Shown here: piece by piece, positions 1-12,911 of the stretch
Position numbering within the stretch: the stretch's first letter is position 1
How the letters are laid out: each line of letters opens with the position of its first letter
NCBI GenBank assembly: GCA_003159055.1
Contig: PMLH01000211.1
Coordinates: forward strand, 14,596 to 27,506
Length of the DNA stretch: 12,911 nucleotides
Reading direction: 5' to 3'
Source of the DNA: Myxococcales bacterium
GTDB lineage: Bacteria; Myxococcota; Polyangia; Fen-1088
The notes under the pieces: generated by a model
Told to the model about the DNA's origin: nothing
Databases searched by the model: none
What the model saw: only the letters and a program-made list of their open reading frames with translations
Program-made: the position numbers and the translations under genes

Positions 1-762
1 CTGGCGCTGACCCGGCTGATTGCTGACGGTCGCATCCATCCGACGCGTATCGAAGAAATGGTTCGCAAGGCCACCGATGAGGTCGAAGCCCAGTGCAAGG
101 AAGCCGGCGATCAGGCGGCGTTCGATCTTGGCATCGGCCGACTGCACCCCGATCTTGGGCGACTGCTGGGCAAGTTGCGCTTTCGCTCGGGAACCGCGCA
201 GAACCTGCTTGCGCACTCCATCGAGGTCGGCTTTTTGGCGGGCACCATCGCGGGCGAGCTTGGCTATCCGGTGAAAGTGGCACGCCGGGCGGGGCTTCTG
301 CACGACATCGGGTGCGGCGTGGATCAGGAGGTCGACGGGTCGCACGCCGTCGCGGGCGCTGTGATGGCGCGCAAGTTTGGCGAGGCGCCGAAGATTTGCC
401 ACGCCATCGAAGCTCACCACGGCGAAGTTCCGGCCGAAGACGTGCTGGACCACATCGTGGACGCGGCCAACGTTCTGGCCAACCAGCGCCCCGGGGCTCG
501 GCGAGAGTCGCTGGAATCCTACGTCCAGCGTCTGGACGACCTGGAGAAGGTGGCGTCTGGCTTTGAAGGTGTCGAGCGGGCCTTCGCGATTCAGGCCGGT
601 CGTGAAGTGCGGGTCCTGGTCGAGAACAACAAAGTCAGCGACGAGCAGGCGCGCGTGCTGTCCAAGGACATCGCCCGCAAGGTCGAGGCGCAGCTCTCCT
701 ATCCCGGCCAAATCCGGGTTTCGGTCGTGCGAGAAACCCGCGCCGTGGACTTTGCCAAGTAG
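1..762 (+). CDS. rny: Ribonuclease Y, C-terminal part (5' end outside window)
   Basis: The reading frame is open from base 1, so this is the last 253 residues of a longer protein (RNase Y is usually about 500-520 aa). RNase Y is a membrane-anchored endoribonuclease that starts mRNA decay. The visible part holds the HD domain and the C-terminal domain: LIADGRIHP at the start, AHS (about residue 72), LLHDIG (about 99-104), GSHA (about 115), AHHGEV (about 139) and the family signature RPGARRESLESYVQRL. The usual K after HDIG is C here (HDIGCGVD). The usual Asp in the AADAIS-type metal motif reads Asn (DAANVLAN, codon 469-471). The N-terminal transmembrane segment, coiled coil and KH domain lie outside the window. 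The gene is followed by a short gap and a lipoprotein gene on the same strand. Family identity is seen clearly; whether the HD site is active is open. Confidence 0.93.
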   Translation: MALTRLIADGRIHPTRIEEMVRKATDEVEAQCKEAGDQAAFDLGIGRLHPDLGRLLGKLRFRSGTAQNLLAHSIEVGFLAGTIAGELGYPVKVARRAGLLHDIGCGVDQEVDGSHAVAGAVMARKFGEAPKICHAIEAHHGEVPAEDVLDHIVDAANVLANQRPGARRESLESYVQRLDDLEKVASGFEGVERAFAIQAGREVRVLVENNKVSDEQARVLSKDIARKVEAQLSYPGQIRVSVVRETRAVDFAK

Positions 763-3359: not shown

Positions 3360-4493
3360 CTAGCCCTCGAAGTACGTTGTTTCCGCGGACGTGGGCTCGT
3401 CGTCGAGCAGGTCGTAGCGATGGTGCTTCATCGCCTGGTAGTAGAAGCAGTAGGTGTCGCCCGCGTCGAGATCGGTTTGGCTGTGGCGTTTCCAGGTGCA
3501 GCCACCGCGGCACACGTCACCGTAGCGACAAACGCGGCAGAAACCGCGCAGATCGTCCATGCGAAAGCCACGGTTGTAGAGAAATCCGGTCTTGCGGTGC
3601 CAGATGTCGCGCAGGCTCTCCGTTCGGATGTTGCCCTCGACGTAGCCGGCTTGGCCGTGCCTTTCCGAGGGCAAGGACAGGCAACCCTTGACGTTGCCGT
3701 TGCTCTCGATCCCGAGCACGTGCATCCCCGCCCAGCAGCCAAGCCAGAACGGCATGCTCACGTCGGCCTGGCGCAAGTGCGCTTCGGGCTTGCCGAAATA
3801 CCCTACGTGGTCGCTGGCGACGACGACCATGTGGCCCTTGCGCTCTCGGCAGAGGTCGGCGATCTGCGGGACCAGCCACAAGAGATCCTCGGCCGGCAGC
3901 ACGAGATCTCGATGCGCCGCCATGGCTCCGGTGGGGATGGCGTATTGCAGTTGCCACGAGCGCACGCCCGCAAAGGCGAGAAGGTCGCGCATCTCCACCA
4001 GCTGATGGCGATTTCCGCGATGAATCGTCGTGTTCACTGTCGCTTCCAGCCCCGCCGCACGCACGTCGGCGATGGCAGCGCGCACGCGGGCGAAGGAACC
4101 CGGCGTGCGAAAGGCGTCGTGCTCGGCCTCTAGGCCGTCGAGACTGAAGCCGACACTGCAGATTCCGGCGCGCGCCGCCCGTTCGGCGTCGCTCGCCTGC
4201 CAGGCCCAAGCGTTGGAAATCATTCCGACCCGCACCTTCTGTCGGGTGAGTCGCTCGGCCACTTGATCCCATGCCGGGTGCAGCGTGGGCTCGCCGCCGG
4301 TCAGGGTCACGCGCTGGCAGCGCAGCTCGACCAACGCGTCCGCGAGGCGCAGGCACTCGTCCGTGGTCAGCTCGTCATCTCGCGCGCGGCCCGCGAGCGA
4401 TCCGCAGTGGGTGCAATTCATGTTGCACCGAAGCGTTAGCTCCCAGCCGCAGGCGCGCGGCACGAAGCCGACGCGACGAAAGACCTCGAGCAT
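3360..4493 (-). CDS. Radical SAM/SPASM peptide- or protein-modifying enzyme
   Basis: A 377-aa protein with the radical SAM motif CNMNCTHC (Cys23, 27, 30) that binds the SAM-cleaving [4Fe-4S] cluster, TGGEPT (65-70) and a typical partial barrel. The C-terminal SPASM domain is complete: C253-x12-G266-x4-C271, then C319-x2-C322-x5-C328-x3-C332, then C349. This pattern binds two auxiliary [4Fe-4S] clusters in SPASM enzymes such as anaerobic sulfatase maturases and RiPP maturases, which modify peptide or protein side chains or backbones. The start is 6 nt after the stop of the repeat-containing lipoprotein, so the two are very probably one transcript and translationally coupled; the upstream ribosome site is weak. 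No RiPP recognition (PqqD-like) domain is evident. The natural substrate is unknown, and the upstream lipoprotein is the obvious candidate. It is cytoplasmic, with no signal peptide. Confidence 0.92.
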   Translation of the reverse strand: MLEVFRRVGFVPRACGWELTLRCNMNCTHCGSLAGRARDDELTTDECLRLADALVELRCQRVTLTGGEPTLHPAWDQVAERLTRQKVRVGMISNAWAWQASDAERAARAGICSVGFSLDGLEAEHDAFRTPGSFARVRAAIADVRAAGLEATVNTTIHRGNRHQLVEMRDLLAFAGVRSWQLQYAIPTGAMAAHRDLVLPAEDLLWLVPQIADLCRERKGHMVVVASDHVGYFGKPEAHLRQADVSMPFWLGCWAGMHVLGIESNGNVKGCLSLPSERHGQAGYVEGNIRTESLRDIWHRKTGFLYNRGFRMDDLRGFCRVCRYGDVCRGGCTWKRHSQTDLDAGDTYCFYYQAMKHHRYDLLDDEPTSAETTYFEG

Positions 4494-4499
4494 GACGGC

Positions 4500-5045
4500 C
4501 TACTTCTTCTCCGGCGGCGCCAAGGGGCCGGGTGACGTCCCTGGCGCGCCAGTTGCCAATGGCTTGTCCGCCGCCAGACTAAACACGACATACGGCGGAG
4601 GCGGAAAGGGGATGTCGGGCCGCACGTCCAGCGGCGCCTCGGAGGCGTCTCGGTCGGTGTCTCGGTTGTCGACTCGGTCGGCGTCTCGGTTGTCGACTCG
4701 GTCGGCATCTCGGTTATCGACTCGGTCGGCGTCCACGCTCGGCGCTTCCAGCGCATCTGCTGCGACGTCCGCTGCGGCGTCTTCCACCATGACTGCCAGA
4801 TACGGCACATTCATCAGTGGGAGGTCGTCCTTGGTGGCCGCGTCCGCCAGATCCGGCGCGCTGGCCAGGGTGTCCGAATTCTCGGCCACGAGGTCGGGGC
4901 CACCATCCGCGGGCTTGCCCTGCAGCGCATGCCGCTCGCACCCTGCTGCCGAGAGCCCCAGTCCCATGGACGCCGGCACGACCACCGTGCGCGCGGTCTT
5001 CTTCAAGAATTGCGCGATGCGATCGCGTATGTCCTTTTCCTTCAT
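4500..5045 (-). CDS. Asp-rich lipoprotein with DADRVDNR repeats; candidate substrate of the adjacent radical SAM enzyme
   Basis: A 181-aa protein. A long charged start (MKEKDIRDRIAQFLKK) is followed by a hydrophobic stretch ending LSAAGC, giving a probable lipid site at Cys36. The n-region is longer than in ordinary lipoproteins and may act as a recognition leader. The rest is acidic and Ala/Asp-rich, with three exact DADRVDNR octapeptides (residues 105-128) plus a DTDR remnant. A Pro-rich C-terminus contains PFPPPPYVVFS. Two Pro-Tyr-hydrophobic motifs occur: NVPYLAVM (Tyr82) and PPPYVVFS (Tyr152). Cys36 is the only Cys. GGAGGGGG precedes the ATG by about 9-12 nt and supports the start. The downstream SPASM radical SAM gene begins 6 nt after the stop. 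I recognise no named family; substrate status is inferred from the pairing. Confidence 0.8.
   Translation of the reverse strand: MKEKDIRDRIAQFLKKTARTVVVPASMGLGLSAAGCERHALQGKPADGGPDLVAENSDTLASAPDLADAATKDDLPLMNVPYLAVMVEDAAADVAADALEAPSVDADRVDNRDADRVDNRDADRVDNRDTDRDASEAPLDVRPDIPFPPPPYVVFSLAADKPLATGAPGTSPGPLAPPEKK
4662..4733 (-). repeat. Three tandem 24-bp repeats inside the lipoprotein gene
   Basis: Three codon-phased 24-bp copies (4662-4685, 4686-4709, 4710-4733) each encode the octapeptide DADRVDNR. Copies differ by one or two bases, all silent, so the peptide is kept exactly. Partial copies flank the array. This suggests recent expansion, with the protein repeat under selection or the copies too young to have diverged. 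Confidence 0.9.
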
Positions 5046-5134: not shown

Positions 5135-6076
5135 TCATTCAACCGGACAGCCGCGCCAGGAGGTCCCTCCCGATGTCCCGTCCAGGTCGCAATAGCAGGG
5201 CATCGCGCTCGCGCACGAGCTGCAGCACGTCGGGCAGTAGCAATAGGAGTCTAGAATGGCGCAGTACGAATAGGAGGAGGCGCCCGAAGCAGGACACTCC
5301 TGACATTCGACCGGCAGCGAGAGATTGGTTTGGCTTGTGGCGCCCGCGCAAACAGTGCTGGTGCCGGTCGTGTCGGTGTAGGTAGAGCTGCGGATGTTGA
5401 CCTGGAGGGCAACGATAGAACCGCAAGCGGGCGATGCACCCGGTGTGATTGGAGGGCAAGTGAGCTTGACGAATTTGACGTCCTTGCCGGCCTCGATCTT
5501 CGATGTGCAGTCAAGCGATTGCCCACCAGGCAACGACACAACCATGGACACATTCCATGGGTTTCCATCCCACTCGGTGCGCTCCACCCTGCCGCTCATC
5601 CACAGCTGACTGTTGGTTAGAACGAGGTGAACCTTCGTCGGATCAAGAGCCACGGAAGTGCAACACGCGGGAGGTCCGCAGGTAATCGGTGCTGCCGTGC
5701 CTCCTGCTCCACCCAGGCTTGACGTGCCGCCCGCGCCCGTCCCACCCAAGCCACCGCCGGCACCGCCGTTGCCGCCACCAGCCCCACCCATGCCTCCTGC
5801 TCCTGCGAGACCCGAACTGCCCCCCGTGCCCGCCCGGCCCAAGCCACCGCCGGCCCCGCCGTTGCTGCCGCCGGCCCCGCCCGTGTCCGAGCCACCGACG
5901 CCTGTGTCGCCGACGCCCGCGCCCCCCGTGCCTCCGCTCTGCTTGCCGTCCGGGGCAGTTGCAGAAGGTCCTGCCTCCGCGGCAAGGCTCCTACTCGACT
6001 TGCTGCAGCCATTACCGGCCAACATCGAGAGGCCTACCAACACGGAGAACGACAACAACGCCCATCGGAGTCTCAT
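5135..6076 (-). CDS. Lipoprotein with Gly-rich tandem repeat and Cys-rich C-terminus
   Basis: A 313-aa protein with a signal peptide and lipobox region ending LAGNGC (Cys24). A long Gly/Ala/Ser/Thr linker (about 48-127) contains two near-identical 31-residue repeats. A compact domain follows (about 130-255; starts ITCGPPACC, contains PTKVHLVLTNSQLWMSGRVERTEWDG-type beta-rich sequence). The last 57 residues hold 13 cysteines, in patterns such as CQEC, YCYCPTCC, SSC and PCYC. The Gly-rich linker after the lipid site is typical of myxobacterial outer-membrane lipoproteins. ATG 6076 is chosen; a TTG eight codons upstream is also possible but unneeded. No strong Shine-Dalgarno is seen. The Cys-rich tail could form many disulfides or bind metal; no known domain was recognised. 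It lies 89 bp upstream of the repeat lipoprotein, same strand. Confidence 0.8.
   Translation of the reverse strand: MRLRWALLSFSVLVGLSMLAGNGCSKSSRSLAAEAGPSATAPDGKQSGGTGGAGVGDTGVGGSDTGGAGGSNGGAGGGLGRAGTGGSSGLAGAGGMGGAGGGNGGAGGGLGGTGAGGTSSLGGAGGTAAPITCGPPACCTSVALDPTKVHLVLTNSQLWMSGRVERTEWDGNPWNVSMVVSLPGGQSLDCTSKIEAGKDVKFVKLTCPPITPGASPACGSIVALQVNIRSSTYTDTTGTSTVCAGATSQTNLSLPVECQECPASGASSYSYCAILDSYCYCPTCCSSCASAMPCYCDLDGTSGGTSWRGCPVE
5696..5881 (-). repeat. Two tandem 93-bp repeats encoding a Gly-rich linker
   Basis: Copies at 5789-5881 and 5696-5788 encode 31-residue Gly-rich segments (GGAGG-N-GGAGGGLG core) that are nearly the same. They make up most of the linker of the surrounding lipoprotein and are a likely site of length variation. 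Confidence 0.75.
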
Positions 6077-6326
6077 GGTGTCCAGTATAGCGGCGCGCAA
6101 TCTTGGGAGAAGAGTCCATCACCCCCCCCAATTCCATGTCTGTGATCATGCGCTCAGGGACGTTGCCGTGATGGGGTCCCTCGAAACGATGTTCTTCGCC
6201 ATCTGCCGTCCGACCGCCGCCGTGTTTTCGATGAAACCTTTGGGCCCGGCTGGCAATCGAACAACACGTGCTTGAGGCCGCGCCTGGCGACGCTGGCAAA
6301 TTGCACAGCTAAGCAAAGGACATATT
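6077..6326. promoter_or_regulatory. Divergent intergenic region, 250 bp
   Basis: The longest gap without a gene, lying between the starts of two divergent lipoprotein genes, so it should contain both promoters. On the - strand TATACT (6084-6089) is a candidate -10 placed only 7 nt from the start codon, without a good -35. On the + strand I see AAGGA (6314-6319 area) as ribosome site for the gene at 6327 but no clear promoter. A run of eight C occurs near 6122. The - strand frame open over part of this region looks like chance coding. Confidence 0.4.
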
Positions 6327-7104: not shown

Positions 7105-8703
7105 CTACTCCTCCCAGCTCAGAAATCCCGGCTTCGCGTCGGTCATTGCGTTCACGATCAATTCGACCAGGCCGCCGTAGCGGATGCCGACCTTTTCCTT
7201 GGCTTGGTAGCGCCCGAGGATGTCACGGATGGCGCCTTTGCAGTTGCTGCACGGGGCGCACACGTATTTCGGATGCTCGGGGGCAAGGTCGTCGCGGAAG
7301 GCTTCTAGGATTTGCCTGAATTTTCGCCGGCTCGCGACCCGCATGCGCCAGTCGGCGAAGTTGTGGCTGGACATGATGGCGAAGCCGCTGCCGCCGCCGC
7401 AGCAATAGTTGTGGACGCCGTGCGGGGTCATCTCGCGGAACTTCGGCGCGATCTTGCGCAGAATCCTGCGCTGAGGCTCGACGATGCCCATCAGACGAAC
7501 CACGTTGCACGGGTCGTGCAAGGTGACGGGAAAATCGTTGCGGGACGGGTCCAGTTTCAGCTTGCCGCTGGCCACAATGTCGTCGAGCAAGGTCAGCGAG
7601 CTTTCGCGCGGAATGTTCAGCTCGCCGGTGAGGATGCGGTCGCCGATGACCATCATCGACTTGTGGGCGTGCCCGCACTCGCCGATCACGATCTTCTTCA
7701 CGCCGAGCTTCTTGGCGATCTGGGCGTGTTTGATGGCGACGCGGGCGAATTGCGCGTCGTCGTACCACAGGCCGTAGTTGACGGCATCGTAGCCGACCAG
7801 ATCGCTCGACAGGGTCCACGAGATTCCGGCGGCGTCGAGAATCAGCGCGAAGGCCCCGGGATTTTCCGGCCACGACAGGATCTCGCCCGCGTTGTGAAGC
7901 AGCAGCACGTCGGCGCCCGCGACGTCCCACTTGGTTTCGACCTTGATGCCGGTCTTTTCGGTCATCTCTTCGTCGACGAACGCCATGTTGTCGCGAACGG
8001 CGGCCTGATTCATCCCGGTTGACGAACCGGAACGTAGCTGAAGCATCGAACCCTTCTCGTGAATCTCCTTGGGCGCGATGCCGAGCTCCATGCTGAACAG
8101 CTTGCGAATCTCCCGAGCGATCAAACCGTTGTCGGCGCCCATGGGGCAGGTCTGGGCGCAGCGACGGCAGAGGTTGCAGCGGTACGAGAGCTCGAGCAAG
8201 CGCGCGATTGTGGTCCAATTGATATCGATGTCGCCGTGCTGAAAGCGCGAAAGCAAGCTGCCGCCGCTGCGGTGCTTGTGGTAGAGGCGGCGCAGAATCT
8301 CCGCGCGGAAGGTCGGCCGATACAGCTCGTTCCGGCCGCTTTCCTCGAAGATGTGGCACGCCTTCGCGCAGGTCTGGCACTTCGTGCAGTGATCGATGGA
8401 AAGGACCAGCGGTTGCAGGAAGGTCCAGTTGTTCTCGCGGCTGAAAAGTTTGTCGAGGCCGGCCAGGAAGCCTTCGACCAGCGCCTTCTCGGCTTCCGGG
8501 CTCGCGGGGTGCGGGACCGAGACCGCGACGGTGTCGTCCAGCGAGCATTCGCAGCGGGCGTGCAGCTCGGCCGAAAGTGCCGGCAGCGGCGGTTCTTGCC
8601 AGGCGTCGTATGGCGGCGGCAGCGGCACGCGATCGTTGTCGTCGAGCTGGCCTAGGCGCTCGCTGGGTTTGCCGACCGCGGAGAATGGAATGGCGACGCT
8701 CAT
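7105..8703 (-). CDS. dsrK: DsrK-like Fe-S subunit of the Dsr membrane complex (HdrD-like)
   Basis: A 532-aa cytoplasmic protein, the usual length for DsrK/HmeD. Two ferredoxin-type clusters are bound by C106-x2-C109-x2-C112-x3-C116 and C176-x2-C179-x2-C182-x3-C186. The C-terminal HdrD/CCG-type part has GECGHA (Cys343), LHDPCN (Cys399), YCCGGGSG (Cys434, 435) and CAPCSNC (482, 485, 488), a complete set for the catalytic non-cubane-type cluster. In the family DsrK pairs with DsrM and is proposed to act on the DsrC trisulfide/disulfide, linking quinol oxidation or reduction to sulfite chemistry. The start at 8703 follows GGAGGTG and overlaps the dsrM stop as ATGA, so coupling is expected; an in-frame extension to 8775 lies inside dsrM and is rejected. 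It is the last gene of the operon. A related HmeD-type subunit of a methanogen-like complex is the main alternative. Confidence 0.87.
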   Translation of the reverse strand: MSVAIPFSAVGKPSERLGQLDDNDRVPLPPPYDAWQEPPLPALSAELHARCECSLDDTVAVSVPHPASPEAEKALVEGFLAGLDKLFSRENNWTFLQPLVLSIDHCTKCQTCAKACHIFEESGRNELYRPTFRAEILRRLYHKHRSGGSLLSRFQHGDIDINWTTIARLLELSYRCNLCRRCAQTCPMGADNGLIAREIRKLFSMELGIAPKEIHEKGSMLQLRSGSSTGMNQAAVRDNMAFVDEEMTEKTGIKVETKWDVAGADVLLLHNAGEILSWPENPGAFALILDAAGISWTLSSDLVGYDAVNYGLWYDDAQFARVAIKHAQIAKKLGVKKIVIGECGHAHKSMMVIGDRILTGELNIPRESSLTLLDDIVASGKLKLDPSRNDFPVTLHDPCNVVRLMGIVEPQRRILRKIAPKFREMTPHGVHNYCCGGGSGFAIMSSHNFADWRMRVASRRKFRQILEAFRDDLAPEHPKYVCAPCSNCKGAIRDILGRYQAKEKVGIRYGGLVELIVNAMTDAKPGFLSWEE

Positions 8704-9599
8704 TTCTTCACCTCCGCAGTGGCGACGTCGACCCAGTTCTTTCCGCCGCCACCGCCGACGTGGGCAGCGGCCCACGTGACCTTTTCACCAAGCTGGCGCT
8801 GGATCTTTGCTTCCAGTCCGGACCCGACGCGGTTGACCTGGTCGTCCCAACGAACGCTGTGATACATGAACCACTTGGTGAAGAAGTGGGACATGTGTGA
8901 AAGCGGCAGGTAGACCAGCAGGGCCAAGCCGACGACGATTTCTGCGACCACGAGGGTGGGTAGATCCGCCACGGGCTCTAGGGTGAGAAGGGATCGCGCG
9001 AAGCCGCGCAGGCAGGCGAAATCGCCATCTGCGAGTGCGAAAGTCGCCAGACCCAGGGTCGCGAGGACGCAGAAACACACAAGGTTGAAGAGATCCGCGG
9101 GCGCGCTGTGCGTGCGCAGGGCGGGATCGGCAAGGCGCCAGAGCAGCAATCCCAGCGCACCTGCGCCGAGCAGGATGAACCCGGCGACGCCGACGAACAC
9201 GGTGACGGTCGCAAGGGCGGAAGCGAGGCCGGCCATGTCGAGGCCGTCGGCGATGGCGCCAAGGCCCAGCAGAAGCAGGAAGCTGGCCAGCAGATACAGC
9301 CCGCCGTGGAAGGGATAGCTGCGCAGCCAGAGCGAACGGTTGTGCTCGCGCACGCCGTCCAGAAGCAGGATCTCCCTGGCCATGACTTTCAGATCGCCGA
9401 GGTGTTTGGTCGAGGCGCGAACCCGCCACCAGTTTAGATTTTCGAGCACCGATCCGCCGTGGGCCGCATTTGCATCGTGCGGAACCGGATACAGCTCCCA
9501 GCGCAGATGAAGCGGCATGCGGGCGATCTTCAGCGCGCGCAGCACGATGGCTAAGCCGAAGGCGACCACGGCCAGATAGGTCAGTGCCAGCAGAATCAT
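8700..9599 (-). CDS. dsrM: DsrM-like membrane cytochrome b (NarI-type)
   Basis: A 299-aa integral membrane protein. The first transmembrane helix (2-23) is followed by HLRWELYPVPH (31-41) and HGGSVLENLNWW, a signature of DsrM/HmeC proteins. Four more helices follow (about 98-118, 127-154, 169-190, 213-240). Candidate haem b ligands are His98 (FHGG), His235 and His238 (SHMSHFF). DsrM is the NarI-like subunit that exchanges electrons with menaquinone and passes them to or from DsrK. The start at 9599 has AAGGAG 8 nt upstream and overlaps the stop of the sirohaem synthase gene by 4 nt. The longer ORF to 9722 overlaps that gene and lacks a reason to be used. It ends in a 4-nt overlap with dsrK, the usual DsrM-DsrK pairing. 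Confidence 0.88.
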   Translation of the reverse strand: MILLALTYLAVVAFGLAIVLRALKIARMPLHLRWELYPVPHDANAAHGGSVLENLNWWRVRASTKHLGDLKVMAREILLLDGVREHNRSLWLRSYPFHGGLYLLASFLLLLGLGAIADGLDMAGLASALATVTVFVGVAGFILLGAGALGLLLWRLADPALRTHSAPADLFNLVCFCVLATLGLATFALADGDFACLRGFARSLLTLEPVADLPTLVVAEIVVGLALLVYLPLSHMSHFFTKWFMYHSVRWDDQVNRVGSGLEAKIQRQLGEKVTWAAAHVGGGGGKNWVDVATAEVKK

Positions 9600-11335
9600 C
9601 GCTTGTGCTCCTTGTGGTTCAGGGCGGTCATTGCGGCCAGGTCTTCCCTGCCGCCCAGCACCGTGACCTCGCTCCAGTTGCGCTGTCGGGCCGTCGCCGC
9701 GAGGTCGGCGCTGCGACACCACACCGGTGTCTTGCCGAGAAAGTCCGTAGCGCCTCGCTCGCGCTCAAGAGCATCGAGCTCGGCCGCGCTTCGAACCAGC
9801 CAACCGGAGAGTGGCTCCGAACCAAGCACGATGCGCGCGGCTGCGGTCAACGGTTTGGGCGCGGCCAGAATTTCGGCGCCAGCGGCGTGCAGAGCCCGCG
9901 CCACGTCGCATGCCGGTGCGAAGGTTGCGACGCGCAGGCCTCGAAGCGGAGGCTGCTTACTGGCGAGCGCCTCGGCGTGCGCGACCACGCCACCGATGAC
10001 GAAAATTGCAGGGGATTGGATTTCGGCCTTCTCGGCCGCGGCCGGCAGCTCGGCCAGTGACGTGCGCAGGGAGCGCTGTCCGGGAAGGGTTGCGCGCTCG
10101 ATGAGTGCCGCCGGTGTTTCGCCGCCCATGCCAGCCGCCATCAACGACGCACTGACCTCGGCAAGGTTGCTCACGCCCATGTAGCCAACCAAGGTTGCGT
10201 GCTGGTCTTGGGCGAGCAGATCCCAGCGGACTTGTGGGGTTCCGCCTTCGTGTGCGGTGACGAAGGTCAGTCGGACCGCTTCGCGACGGTAGGTGACTGG
10301 AATGCCTGCTGCGGCCGGTGCGGCGATGCCCGCGGTGACGCCGGGGACGACTTCGCACGCGATGCCGTGCGAGCGCAGCAGCATCGCCTCCTCGCCGCCG
10401 CGGGCGAAGACGAAGGGATCGCCGCCTTTCAAGCGCACGACGCGTTTTCCGGCGCGGGCCAGGCGCAACAGGATCTGATTGATTTCGTCCTGCGGGACTG
10501 GATGGTGGCCTGCTTCCTTGCCGACGCTGATGAGCTCGATGCGATCGGAAAGGTCGAGCGGGATCGCAGGAATCGCGAGGCGGTCGTACACCACGGCGTC
10601 GGCCCTGCGCAAAAGGTCCAAGCCACGCACGGTCAGCAAGCCCGGATTGCCGGGGCCGGCGCCCACCAGCGCAACGTGGCCGGTCTTCTCAGCCGCGCCC
10701 TTGTCGCCGCCGCTTCCCGCTGCAATCCACGCGGCCTCTTCTTCCGCCGTCGGCAGGCGAACAGCCAAGGTGGCGTCGTCGACGGAATGCTCCACCCATC
10801 GGTCGAAGACCGCCTCGGCCGCAGACGGTGCAAGGGCGTTGGCCTGCACGCGCTGGCGGAATTGCTTGGCCGCGGAAACCCATTCGGACCATTCCGGACC
10901 GAACTTGCGTTCGAGCAACTGTCGCAGCCGGCGAACTGCGAACGGCGCGCCGCCCGCCGAGGCGATGGCGAGTTGGAAATCTCCCCGCTGCACGCGGGAG
11001 GGAAGATAGAAGTCGCACAGCGCGGGCACGTCCGCCACGTTCACCCAGATTCCGCGCTTTTGGGCGGCGTTGACGACCTGCTGGTCGACCGCACGGTCGC
11101 CCGTGGCGACGAACACGAGCTGAAAGCCCTCGACATCGGCGTCGGCGAACGGCCGCTCACGCAAGGCGACCGTCCCCTCGGCGGCAAGCCGCGCGACGGG
11201 CTCGATTGCGGTGGGAGCAACCACCGTCACCCGTGCACCCTCCGCCAGAAGGGAAAGCAGTTTCCGGTGCGCGACTTGGCCCGCGCCCACGAGGAGGCAG
11301 GGACGGTCGTGCAGGTCGAGCATGATGGGGTACAT
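9596..11335 (-). CDS. cysG: Sirohaem synthase, CysG-type with extra C-terminal domain
   Basis: A 579-aa multidomain enzyme. Residues 1-about 200 are the precorrin-2 dehydrogenase/ferrochelatase part (VGAGQVAHRK at 16-25, VNVADVPALCDFYLPS at 98-113, IASAGGAPF). Residues about 219-455 are uroporphyrinogen-III methyltransferase: VGAGPGNPGLLT (224-235), RLKGGDPFVFARGGEE (301-316), VPGVTAGIAAPAAAGIPVTYR. Together they make sirohaem from uroporphyrinogen III. E. coli CysG ends at about 457 aa; here about 115 more residues (463-579) start PLRGLRVATF and look like a shortened uroporphyrinogen-III synthase (HemD) half: RALHAAGAEIL, GWLVRSAAEL, VTVLGGREDL. That last point is inference. Sirohaem is the DsrAB cofactor, which fits the dsr neighbours. 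The gene is 64 nt after dsrJ; the end overlaps dsrM by 4 nt. Confidence 0.92.
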   Translation of the reverse strand: MYPIMLDLHDRPCLLVGAGQVAHRKLLSLLAEGARVTVVAPTAIEPVARLAAEGTVALRERPFADADVEGFQLVFVATGDRAVDQQVVNAAQKRGIWVNVADVPALCDFYLPSRVQRGDFQLAIASAGGAPFAVRRLRQLLERKFGPEWSEWVSAAKQFRQRVQANALAPSAAEAVFDRWVEHSVDDATLAVRLPTAEEEAAWIAAGSGGDKGAAEKTGHVALVGAGPGNPGLLTVRGLDLLRRADAVVYDRLAIPAIPLDLSDRIELISVGKEAGHHPVPQDEINQILLRLARAGKRVVRLKGGDPFVFARGGEEAMLLRSHGIACEVVPGVTAGIAAPAAAGIPVTYRREAVRLTFVTAHEGGTPQVRWDLLAQDQHATLVGYMGVSNLAEVSASLMAAGMGGETPAALIERATLPGQRSLRTSLAELPAAAEKAEIQSPAIFVIGGVVAHAEALASKQPPLRGLRVATFAPACDVARALHAAGAEILAAPKPLTAAARIVLGSEPLSGWLVRSAAELDALERERGATDFLGKTPVWCRSADLAATARQRNWSEVTVLGGREDLAAMTALNHKEHKR

Positions 11336-11399
11336 AGGCGGGGCCTTCTTTTCCTTGGTTCTCTCGCCCCTTCTTTTACTCCTAGCAGCTCGAAGTCAG
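11336..11399 (-). other. 64-nt gap between dsrJ and cysG
   Basis: The only real gap in the operon. On the coding strand it is purine-rich, with AGGAG, AAGAAGG and AAGGAAAAGAAGG runs; the AAGG about 8 nt before ATG 11335 is the likely ribosome site. No terminator hairpin with U-tract is seen. Confidence 0.4.
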
Positions 11400-11780
11400 C
11401 TACGGTCGCGCGATCGTCGACTGCGGATGGCATTGCCAACAGGAAAGCGTGACGCCGACTTGCGTGTGGCATCGCTCGCAGAACTTGCTCGCTTCGCCGT
11501 GGCAGCCGAGGCAGGTCTCCGCGAGGCCGATGCGAACATCGCGACCGTCGGTGGTGCGGTGGGTGCGCTGGCCGAGCCGGACCGCCTGTTCGCGCCAACT
11601 GGACAGCAACGCCGGGTGATTGCGGCGCATGGAATCCTTGGGTTCGATGCACTGTCCAGTGCCGCTCGGCGGCACGGCTGGCTCGCTCCTGGCGCCCCTT
11701 ACTGCGCCAACCCAAAGCGGTCCAGCCGCCACCACGGCCGCGATCGCGATTCCTCCGACGACTTTGCCGATATCCATCAT
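11400..11780 (-). CDS. dsrJ: DsrJ, periplasmic triheme cytochrome c
   Basis: A 126-aa protein with an N-terminal signal anchor (about residues 5-25) and three haem c sites: CLGCH (90-94), CERCH (101-105) and CWQCH (114-118). Between anchor and haems lies QCIEPKDSMRRNHPALLSS (43-61), the DsrJ hallmark with a conserved Cys (Cys44) and MRRNH. In Allochromatium vinosum DsrJ a Cys in this region is a distal ligand of one haem (His/Cys ligation, essential for function). DsrJ is the periplasmic electron-transfer subunit of DsrMKJOP. The start ATG 11780 overlaps the stop of the upstream gene as ATGA; a second ATG follows at once, so the start could be one codon later. It is cut off from the classic dsrO and dsrP neighbours, which are not seen in this window. 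Confidence 0.92.
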   Translation of the reverse strand: MMDIGKVVGGIAIAAVVAAGPLWVGAVRGARSEPAVPPSGTGQCIEPKDSMRRNHPALLSSWREQAVRLGQRTHRTTDGRDVRIGLAETCLGCHGEASKFCERCHTQVGVTLSCWQCHPQSTIARP

Positions 11781-12911
11781 GAGTCCGGCTGCGCGATGGG
11801 CTCGCGCCGAAAGTTGAGGGTTCGCGACTTCTCGCCCTTCATGACGAGGGCATTGCCAACCAACTCGTGCAACCCGGCGACGCGCACAGGGGGCGACCAG
11901 TAGTCACAAACGGTGGTCAGCGTAGCGCGATCGATGGCGCAGATCGTGACCAGACTGTTCACGCCGTGCGCGTCGCGAACCTGCGCCACTGCTTTGCCGC
12001 GGCCCATGCCGGCGCGCAGTCGGACTTCCATGTTCTCGTCGGCGGCAAGTCCGGCGCCACCGCCGCAGCACAAAGTTCGCTCGCGAATCGTGTCTTCCGG
12101 CATCTCATGGAATTCGCGGCACACGGCGCGCAGGACCACGCGCGGTTCCTCCAGAAGACCCATCGCGCGGGCCGGGTTGCACGAGTCGTGGAAGGTGGCG
12201 CGCACCGCTGCGTTCCGAGACGGGTCGAGCTTGAGCTTGCCGTGCGCAATGAGGTCGGCCGTGAACTCGGCGATGTGGACCATCTTGGTCGAGCGCGCGT
12301 GCAGGAACCTGGTACCGGTGACGGGCGAGGTCGGCACTTCGAGAAAATCCGCCGGACCGTTCATGGTGTCCATGTACTGGTGGATCACCCGCCACATGTG
12401 GCCGCATTCGCCACCCAGGATCCACTTGACACCGAGCCGCTTGGCTTCGGCGTAGATCTTCGCGTTCAGCCGCTTCATCAGCTCGGGCGAGGCGAAAAGT
12501 CCGAAGTTGCCGCCCTCCGAGGCGTAGGTGCTGAAGGTGTAGTTGAGGCCAAGCTCGTGAAAGAGGGCCAGGTAGCCCATCGCTGTGTAGGTGCCGGGAT
12601 CCGCCAGCAGGTCGCCCGACGGCGTGACGAACAGAATGTCGGCGCCCTTGCGATTGATTGGCACATCGACGCGGATGCCGGTCACTTCCTCCAGCTCGTC
12701 GGCGAGGAATTCGAGCGAATCCTTGATCCCTTGTGGCTGAATGCCGAGGTGGTTGCCGGTGCGGTAGCAGTTCGCCACCGGTTCCATAACCCAGTTGGCG
12801 GAAAGCCCGAGTCGCAAGAGGAGGTCGCGGCCAAGCATGGTGAACTCGGCGGTGTCGATTCCGTACGGGCAGAAGACGGCGCAGCGACGGCACTCGGTGC
12901 ACTGGAAGAAG
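11777..12911 (-). CDS. Second DsrK-like Fe-S protein with altered CCG motif (5' end outside window)
   Basis: The frame is open to the window edge; 377 residues are visible. The edge codes for CTECRRCAVFCP (residues 4-15), a [4Fe-4S] motif, so at least one earlier ferredoxin motif and the N-terminus are probably missing. An HdrD/DsrK-like domain follows: GGECGHM (Cys169), HDSCNP (Cys244), LCCGGGAG (Cys281, 282). The final motif, normally CxxC, reads ICAID (Cys324, Asp327), so one expected cluster ligand is Asp. The nucleotide codons (gat at 11930-11932 on the - strand) show this is not a reading error of mine. It is a paralogue of the DsrK at the operon's end, with 4-nt overlap into dsrJ. The family acts in disulfide or trisulfide chemistry; what this copy does is unknown. 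ATG 12838 is internal, not the true start. Confidence 0.86.
   Translation of the reverse strand, partial: FFQCTECRRCAVFCPYGIDTAEFTMLGRDLLLRLGLSANWVMEPVANCYRTGNHLGIQPQGIKDSLEFLADELEEVTGIRVDVPINRKGADILFVTPSGDLLADPGTYTAMGYLALFHELGLNYTFSTYASEGGNFGLFASPELMKRLNAKIYAEAKRLGVKWILGGECGHMWRVIHQYMDTMNGPADFLEVPTSPVTGTRFLHARSTKMVHIAEFTADLIAHGKLKLDPSRNAAVRATFHDSCNPARAMGLLEEPRVVLRAVCREFHEMPEDTIRERTLCCGGGAGLAADENMEVRLRAGMGRGKAVAQVRDAHGVNSLVTICAIDRATLTTVCDYWSPPVRVAGLHELVGNALVMKGEKSRTLNFRREPIAQPDS

Follow-up and report, generated by a model that had tools for sequence, protein, structure and literature searches.

A candidate Tyr-site modification system pairing a radical SAM/SPASM enzyme with a lipoprotein in Myxococcota

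A radical SAM/SPASM enzyme and a lipoprotein-like protein with Tyr motifs, encoded side by side, form what sequence comparison indicates is a real and conserved pair, spread within one phylum, the Myxococcota. In the copy studied here, from a 12,911-nt stretch of Myxococcales DNA (the window), the lipoprotein is very probably the substrate of the adjoining enzyme. The sequences back the pairing itself, an N-terminal segment shared by close relatives, a lipobox-like Cys, repeated Tyr motifs and the grouping of the enzyme with nif11-class and GDL maturases; the reaction type, the order of steps, export and display are what we infer. The precursor would be made in the cytoplasm, its N-terminal segment doubling as lipoprotein signal peptide and enzyme-recognition leader, and before export the enzyme would act on each of the Tyr-centred motifs that follow the lipobox, probably excising tyramine from the backbone. 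The modified protein would then be exported and lipidated on the Cys, the leader would be removed by lipoprotein signal peptidase, and the modified residues would be displayed on the cell envelope. Taken as a whole, this two-gene modification unit (signal peptide as leader, excision at Tyr sites, displayed lipoprotein) is a proposition for which the chances look even. RiPP precursors are as a rule small peptides of the cytoplasm, from which the modified part is cleaved and then exported; a lipid-anchored substrate with a signal peptide as leader would extend RiPP chemistry to envelope-displayed proteins.

The two genes lie on the minus strand in the order and with the 6-nt spacing that the initial annotation had given (Table 1): the lipoprotein gene runs from an ATG at 5045 to a stop codon ending at 4500, and the enzyme gene follows from an ATG at 4493 to a stop codon ending at 3360. 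The sequence GGAGGGGG stands 9 nt ahead of the lipoprotein ATG. The lipoprotein does have the one Cys, charged N-terminus, three exact DADRVDNR repeats and two Pro-Tyr motifs ascribed to it, and its neighbour is indeed a complete SPASM radical SAM enzyme.

Table 1. Features of the gene pair, in window coordinates
Feature	Position	Strand	Evidence
Radical SAM/SPASM enzyme, 377 aa, predicted modifying enzyme	3360..4493	minus	PF04055 1.7e-23, PF13186 1.8e-8
Lipoprotein-like protein, 181 aa, predicted precursor	4500..5045	minus	two Tyr motifs behind a leader-like N-terminus
Leader/signal segment MKEKDIRDRI...GLSAAGC, residues 1-36	4938..5045	minus	lipobox-like Cys is residue 36
Tyr motif 1, VPYLAVM (Tyr82)	4788..4808	minus	Tyr82 in at least 90% of alignment of 53
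Tyr motif 2, PPPPYVVFS (Tyr152)	4578..4604	minus	Tyr152 in at least 90% of alignment of 53
Tandem array encoding DADRVDNR x3	4649..4733	minus	24 bp x 3.5 copies

The enzyme carries the radical SAM triad CxxxCxxC (C23, C27 and C30) and seven SPASM Cys (C253, C271, C319, C322, C328, C332 and C349), and all ten are invariant in an alignment of 28 sequences. Both Pfam matches are above cut-off, which places it among the radical SAM/SPASM peptide maturases. Among the matches listed, none of 25 NCBIfam models reaches its own cut-off with the enzyme: the top two are TIGR04103 (242.5 bits, cut-off 725) and TIGR03913 (239.9 bits, cut-off 591.75), the third is TIGR04133 (144.4 bits, cut-off 425), and each of these three matches all 28 aligned sequences. 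Scores against the PqqE model (81 of 381 bits) and the mycofactocin model (119 of 265 bits) are also below cut-off. The nearest folds of the predicted structure (mean pLDDT 74, SPASM part poor) are PqqE, SuiB and SkfB, which indicates the expected superfamily only; a PDB sequence search put SkfB and PqqE at the top over the radical SAM part only, and a phage search gave four weak matches. Enzymes of about 545 aa with C-terminal TPR repeats also exist (L010, L011 and many matches of the homologue search), and in L003, L004 and L007 an ORF of similar appearance begins where the enzyme gene ends. Inspection of the window's ORF list and of the sequence downstream of the relatives' enzymes picked out no PlpY-like RRE gene.

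A Tyr-motif lipoprotein-like gene lies directly upstream of the enzyme in 27 of 30 assessable enzyme genes. The count starts from 36 loci found by a contig scan with the enzyme alignment, from which L031 and L033 (at a contig start, with no more than the C-terminus of the enzyme) and the haloarchaeal L034-L036 (27% identity) were left out. The other 31 loci, together with second enzymes in L003 and L004, hold 33 enzyme genes (L023 and L030 are split over two frames, L016 and L029 clipped by contig ends), and L013, L016 and L028, with less than 400 nt upstream, were not assessed for pairing. The positives were read by eye, L015 on its Tyr motif alone; an automatic partner filter was too strict and mis-framed, picking the right partner in 15 of 32 scored cases and unrelated ORFs in L015 and L024. 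No recognisable Tyr-motif lipoprotein partner was found within 2.5 kb of the enzyme in L021, L022 and L029 (in the first two, some short ORFs bearing a single Tyr motif but no lipobox were set aside by eye). The gap from partner to enzyme is -4 to 64 nt in most relatives and 205 nt in L030, and L028 has a lipoprotein-like gene with a MYAAV site just downstream of its enzyme. The expectation of the initial annotation that the same N-terminal segment always lies upstream was right for 14 of the 30 enzyme genes; among the rest, 12 have another N-terminus with a lipobox-like Cys, one runs off the contig and three have no recognisable partner. The idea of the lipoprotein as substrate gains support from the pairing, but the window-type N-terminus is not universal.

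Other genes of the window lie on both strands. A gene run at 7105-12838 (minus) includes matches to DsrK (443 bits, cut-off 400) and to the siroheme synthase CysG (438 bits, cut-off 400), along with a cytochrome b that weakly resembles NarI/DsrM and a second Fe-S protein (CCG), and by these matches looks like an electron-transfer set of the sulfite-reduction type. An HD-domain protein at 58-762 (plus), which may run past the window start, has a C-terminus that we take to resemble the end of RNase Y. The upstream neighbour of the pair at 5135-6100 (minus) encodes a lipoprotein-like protein of 321 aa that is rich in Gly, has a Cys-rich C-terminus and belongs to no Pfam or NCBIfam family; it was considered as part of the unit and rejected, as it was not found in the fetched flanks of L001-L012.

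Neither Pfam nor NCBIfam has a family for the window lipoprotein at E<=0.1, and a homologue search with it gave 53 proteins at that threshold, the window copy counted. In close relatives the N-terminal segment of about 36 residues (MKEKDIRDRI...VVPASMGLGL..GC) is conserved up to the Cys, which in the window protein ends a motif, ...GLSAAGC, judged by eye to be lipobox-like. The sequence after the leader is of low complexity; the alignment of 53 has a mean column identity of 23%. This window-type segment is recognisable in 14 of the 27 paired precursors, and another 12 have a different N-terminus that likewise closes with a lipobox-like Cys. In keeping with this, a search of 12 enzyme-bearing genomes with a profile of the segment gave matches at E<=0.01 in 3 (in one of them no better than 0.008) and nothing at that threshold in the other 9.

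Close homologues conserve the N-terminus and the Tyr motifs, and the wider family the Tyr motifs, which, judging by the alignments, are there the lasting feature of the lipoprotein partners. The DADRVDNR repeats were stressed in the initial annotation and are probably irrelevant: among the 53 homologues the exact unit is confined to the window protein, and a second protein has one near unit. By this comparison the array is a copy-specific expansion of the window gene, and its candidacy as functional core was rejected for that reason. After the Cys, the 28 precursors hold 172 Tyr, 41 Phe and 9 Trp. The residue before Tyr is mixed, whereas those after it are constrained: +1 is Met in 86 cases, Gly in 27, Ala in 15, Ser in 14 and Leu in 10 (n=172), +2 is Ala in 103 and Gly in 15, and +3 is Pro in 89. 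A mixed -1 with constrained +1, +2 and +3 fits the expectation that X of X-Tyr-Gly is free. In the 51 close homologues +1 is Leu in 91 cases, Pro in 24, Val in 22 and Gly in 14 (n=194), and the window sites are PYL and PYV, without Gly at +1. Only YGVP/YGIP-type sites occur in L027 and L032, whose enzymes form a sister group to the rest of the family in the tree; all three sites of each have Gly at +1. The pattern Y[GAMSLVI]xP, picked after inspection of the 28 precursors, occurs 85 times in them against 11.7 +- 3.3 in shuffled sequences (highest of 2000 shuffles, 24). It recurs 167 times in 79 further leader-bearing proteins (Tyr 392, Phe 125, Trp 18), against 27.8 +- 5.0 when shuffled (highest of 1000, 45). 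At E<=0.001 a profile weighted towards the leader found 193 proteins, and the 79 come from the 82 new ones among the best 120 of these, a core of at least 40 aa being required; the set is not wholly independent, because a few full-length members had contributed some core columns to the profile.

Enzyme matches at E<=1e-60 were found in 75 of 188 Myxococcota genomes sampled, with at most 10 candidates scored per genome. Thirty loci were taken from this sample, of which 6 repeat earlier places and 24 are new, a set of more distant enzymes. By eye, a Tyr-motif partner is present in 11 of the new loci (L075, L088-L091, L094 and L096-L100), and no convincing one was seen in the other 13. In L075 the enzyme scores at family level (494 bits) and the nearby lipoprotein-like gene, with five YG sites, is on the opposite strand. 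In most of the 11 the partner has a second architecture, in which a zinc ribbon at the N-terminus is followed by a hydrophobic stretch ending in Cys and then by YG sites (L088, L090, L091, L094 with three copies, L096, L097 with two copies, L098, L099 and L100), and L037-L039 resemble it in having a zinc ribbon, a lipobox-like Cys and YG sites. In L043, C[DE]YGVxPP-type units recur in a Cys-rich frame downstream of a more distant enzyme. A bolder reading, which we hold tentatively and somewhat short of even, is that myxobacteria edit the backbones of their surface lipoproteins: a splicease-like enzyme would excise tyramine from as many as a dozen or so sites in each lipoprotein, the lipoprotein signal peptide would be a RiPP leader removed by signal peptidase II, arrays of reactive ketoamides would be displayed, and short charged and zinc-ribbon leaders would both have been recruited in one phylum.

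The enzyme tree places this family among maturases with Tyr-bearing precursors. In a tree of 53 rows (without L016, L023, L029, L030 and, apart from two haloarchaeal rows, any enzyme below 200 bits) the 30 rows of the window family form a clade (support 100/99) inside a 47-row clade (99/99) that also holds a Nostoc nif11-class maturase 3, two GDL-type maturases and an Agathobacter enzyme; the order of groups within the larger clade is not settled by the tree. The MftC, NirJ, TIGR04053, haloarchaeal and PqqE rows fall outside it, PqqE on a long branch. The Nostoc enzyme is a true member of TIGR04103 (853 bits, cut-off 725), which we take to be the PlpX 'splicease' subclass and which presumably corresponds to IPR026482. 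One GDL-type enzyme is a true TIGR03913 (768 bits, cut-off 591.75) and the other, L063, is below cut-off. Thirteen alignment columns set the family and its relatives apart, being common to 90% or more of 36 rows (the family's 30 together with L043, L051, L052, L056, L057 and L059) and to at least 7 of 8 reference rows, but to no more than 1 of 6 outgroup rows. The Nif11 precursor adjoining the Nostoc enzyme ends in ALYGLPPELF, and the candidate RRE-type protein beside that enzyme has no Pfam match. The GDL enzymes adjoin DUF1843 peptides of about 60 aa with Tyr motifs (LYGGAM, PYGVAI, MYMATM and LYAAGI, in the N-termini, and also MYAASI and PYGAGI), and a tiny ORF ahead of the Agathobacter enzyme ends in GPVMYGTGVRM; no such Tyr-motif peptide was picked out alongside the Tropicibacter enzyme (L066).

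Both the kinship of the enzyme and the shape of the sites make tyramine excision the likeliest reaction, and we would give it about an even chance. The main doubt is that Tyr is followed by Leu or Val in the window clade and mostly by Met in the wider family, where PlpXY has been described with Gly; an enzyme score far below the TIGR04103 cut-off and the lack of an evident PlpY-like gene also count against it. The enzyme could instead modify the Tyr motifs by other radical chemistry, such as a C-C crosslink from Tyr to a neighbour (a cyclophane), epimerisation or another change of Tyr, but this seems less likely. A three-residue cyclophane would require a beta-carbon on residue +2, where 15 of the 172 Tyr sites have Gly, and neither the PqqE nor the mycofactocin model is reached at cut-off, the nearest models being TIGR04103 and TIGR03913. 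Crosslinking would nevertheless be suited by repeated aromatic-centred motifs and by a +1 that is mostly not Gly, and SuiB and PqqE, among the nearest folds of the enzyme model, are both described as C-C bond formers (PMC8326336).

Doubts about the substrate itself carry less weight. The small protein might not be an exported lipoprotein at all, its hydrophobic segment being an ordinary RiPP leader and its Cys incidental: the export signal was judged by eye, and in the leader alignment the charged n-region looks long and the hydrophobic stretch modest. That Cys is, however, invariant in the 16 chosen leader copies aligned, and a lipobox-like Cys, picked by hydropathy, is present in 26 of the 27 paired ones and in the window (the N-terminus of the remaining one, L015, is off the contig), with no later Cys except in L026, which makes an ordinary leader improbable. 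Still more improbable is that the enzyme and lipoprotein are mere neighbours and the enzyme modifies something else. The three enzymes without a recognisable partner would fit such a coincidence, as would one leader lipoprotein of genome G001: of the five there, three adjoin an enzyme, that of L109 (1618-2328, plus) has none beside it in the fetched stretch, and that of L110 (1502-2200, plus) has none in a stretch where it lies 0.37 kb from the contig end. The L109 lipoprotein precedes a frame that by eye resembles prolyl-tRNA synthetase. Against coincidence, the pairing persists in enzymes of 43-50% identity, and when the 13 window proteins were compared with the fetched flanks of L001-L012 (E<=1e-6), matches were confined to the enzyme (in all 12 loci) and the lipoprotein (in 10 of them); L009 and L010, without a match to the window lipoprotein, have lipoproteins of their own. 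The Tyr motifs also recur although the remaining core diverges.

Modification of the lipoprotein by the adjoining enzyme, the preferred reading, finds its closest parallel in PlpXY, which has already been used for protein labelling. PlpXY is reported to act on MYG and LYG sites and to excise a tyramine equivalent, C8H9NO (PMC10533398), and PlpX is described as a SPASM enzyme of subclass IPR026482 with an RRE partner and precursors bearing Nif11- or nitrile-hydratase-like leaders (PMC11002830). TIGR04103 is the top NCBIfam model for the window enzyme, which shares the 47-row clade with a true TIGR04103 enzyme, and both systems have Tyr-centred sites, several per precursor, as in the Nostoc precursor end. 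The window enzyme differs in falling below the TIGR04103 cut-off and in having no recognised RRE partner, its precursor has a lipoprotein-like leader instead of a Nif11 or nitrile-hydratase type, and X-Tyr-Gly sites are not the rule (PYL and PYV in the window, Gly after 27 of 172 Tyr in the 28 precursors). The GDL trio (TIGR03913 with DUF1843) is alike in enzyme score, clade and the same Gly/Ala/Met choice after Tyr, but the window enzyme is below the TIGR03913 cut-off as well, and the trio's precursors lack a lipobox, while the window partner has no Pfam match.

By their names, TIGR04133 (rSAM_w_lipo) and TIGR04134 (lipo_with_rSAM) also join a SPASM enzyme to a lipoprotein, so the general idea of the possible new modification system proposed in the initial annotation is already contained in NCBI names; neither window protein matches at cut-off. 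Membership of the enzyme in TIGR04133 was rejected on score, the lipoprotein has no NCBIfam match at E<=0.1, and TIGR04134 had no match in G001 or G010, where control models gave none either. Signal-peptide leaders have been called highly unusual, yet are known for bufferins and oxazolins, and for about 16% of Buf2 bufferins the prediction is a lipoprotein signal peptide (PMC12452194). MNIO-modified RiPPs, bufferins among them, are similar in that a Sec signal peptide replaces the classic leader, and differ in enzyme class and in their Cys-based chemistry. A literature search found no paper joining spliceotides with lipoproteins; the survey of Scott et al. 2022 (Chem), credited by PMC10533398 with 939 predicted splicease systems, was outside its reach and may already include some of these loci. 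A SPASM maturase with a lipoprotein is already known, and so is a splicease with Tyr sites; the combination of a splicease-like enzyme with a Tyr-motif lipoprotein looks like a new variation on these. If Met, Leu or Val is accepted after Tyr, the site rule described for PlpXY (MYG and LYG; PMC10533398) would widen.
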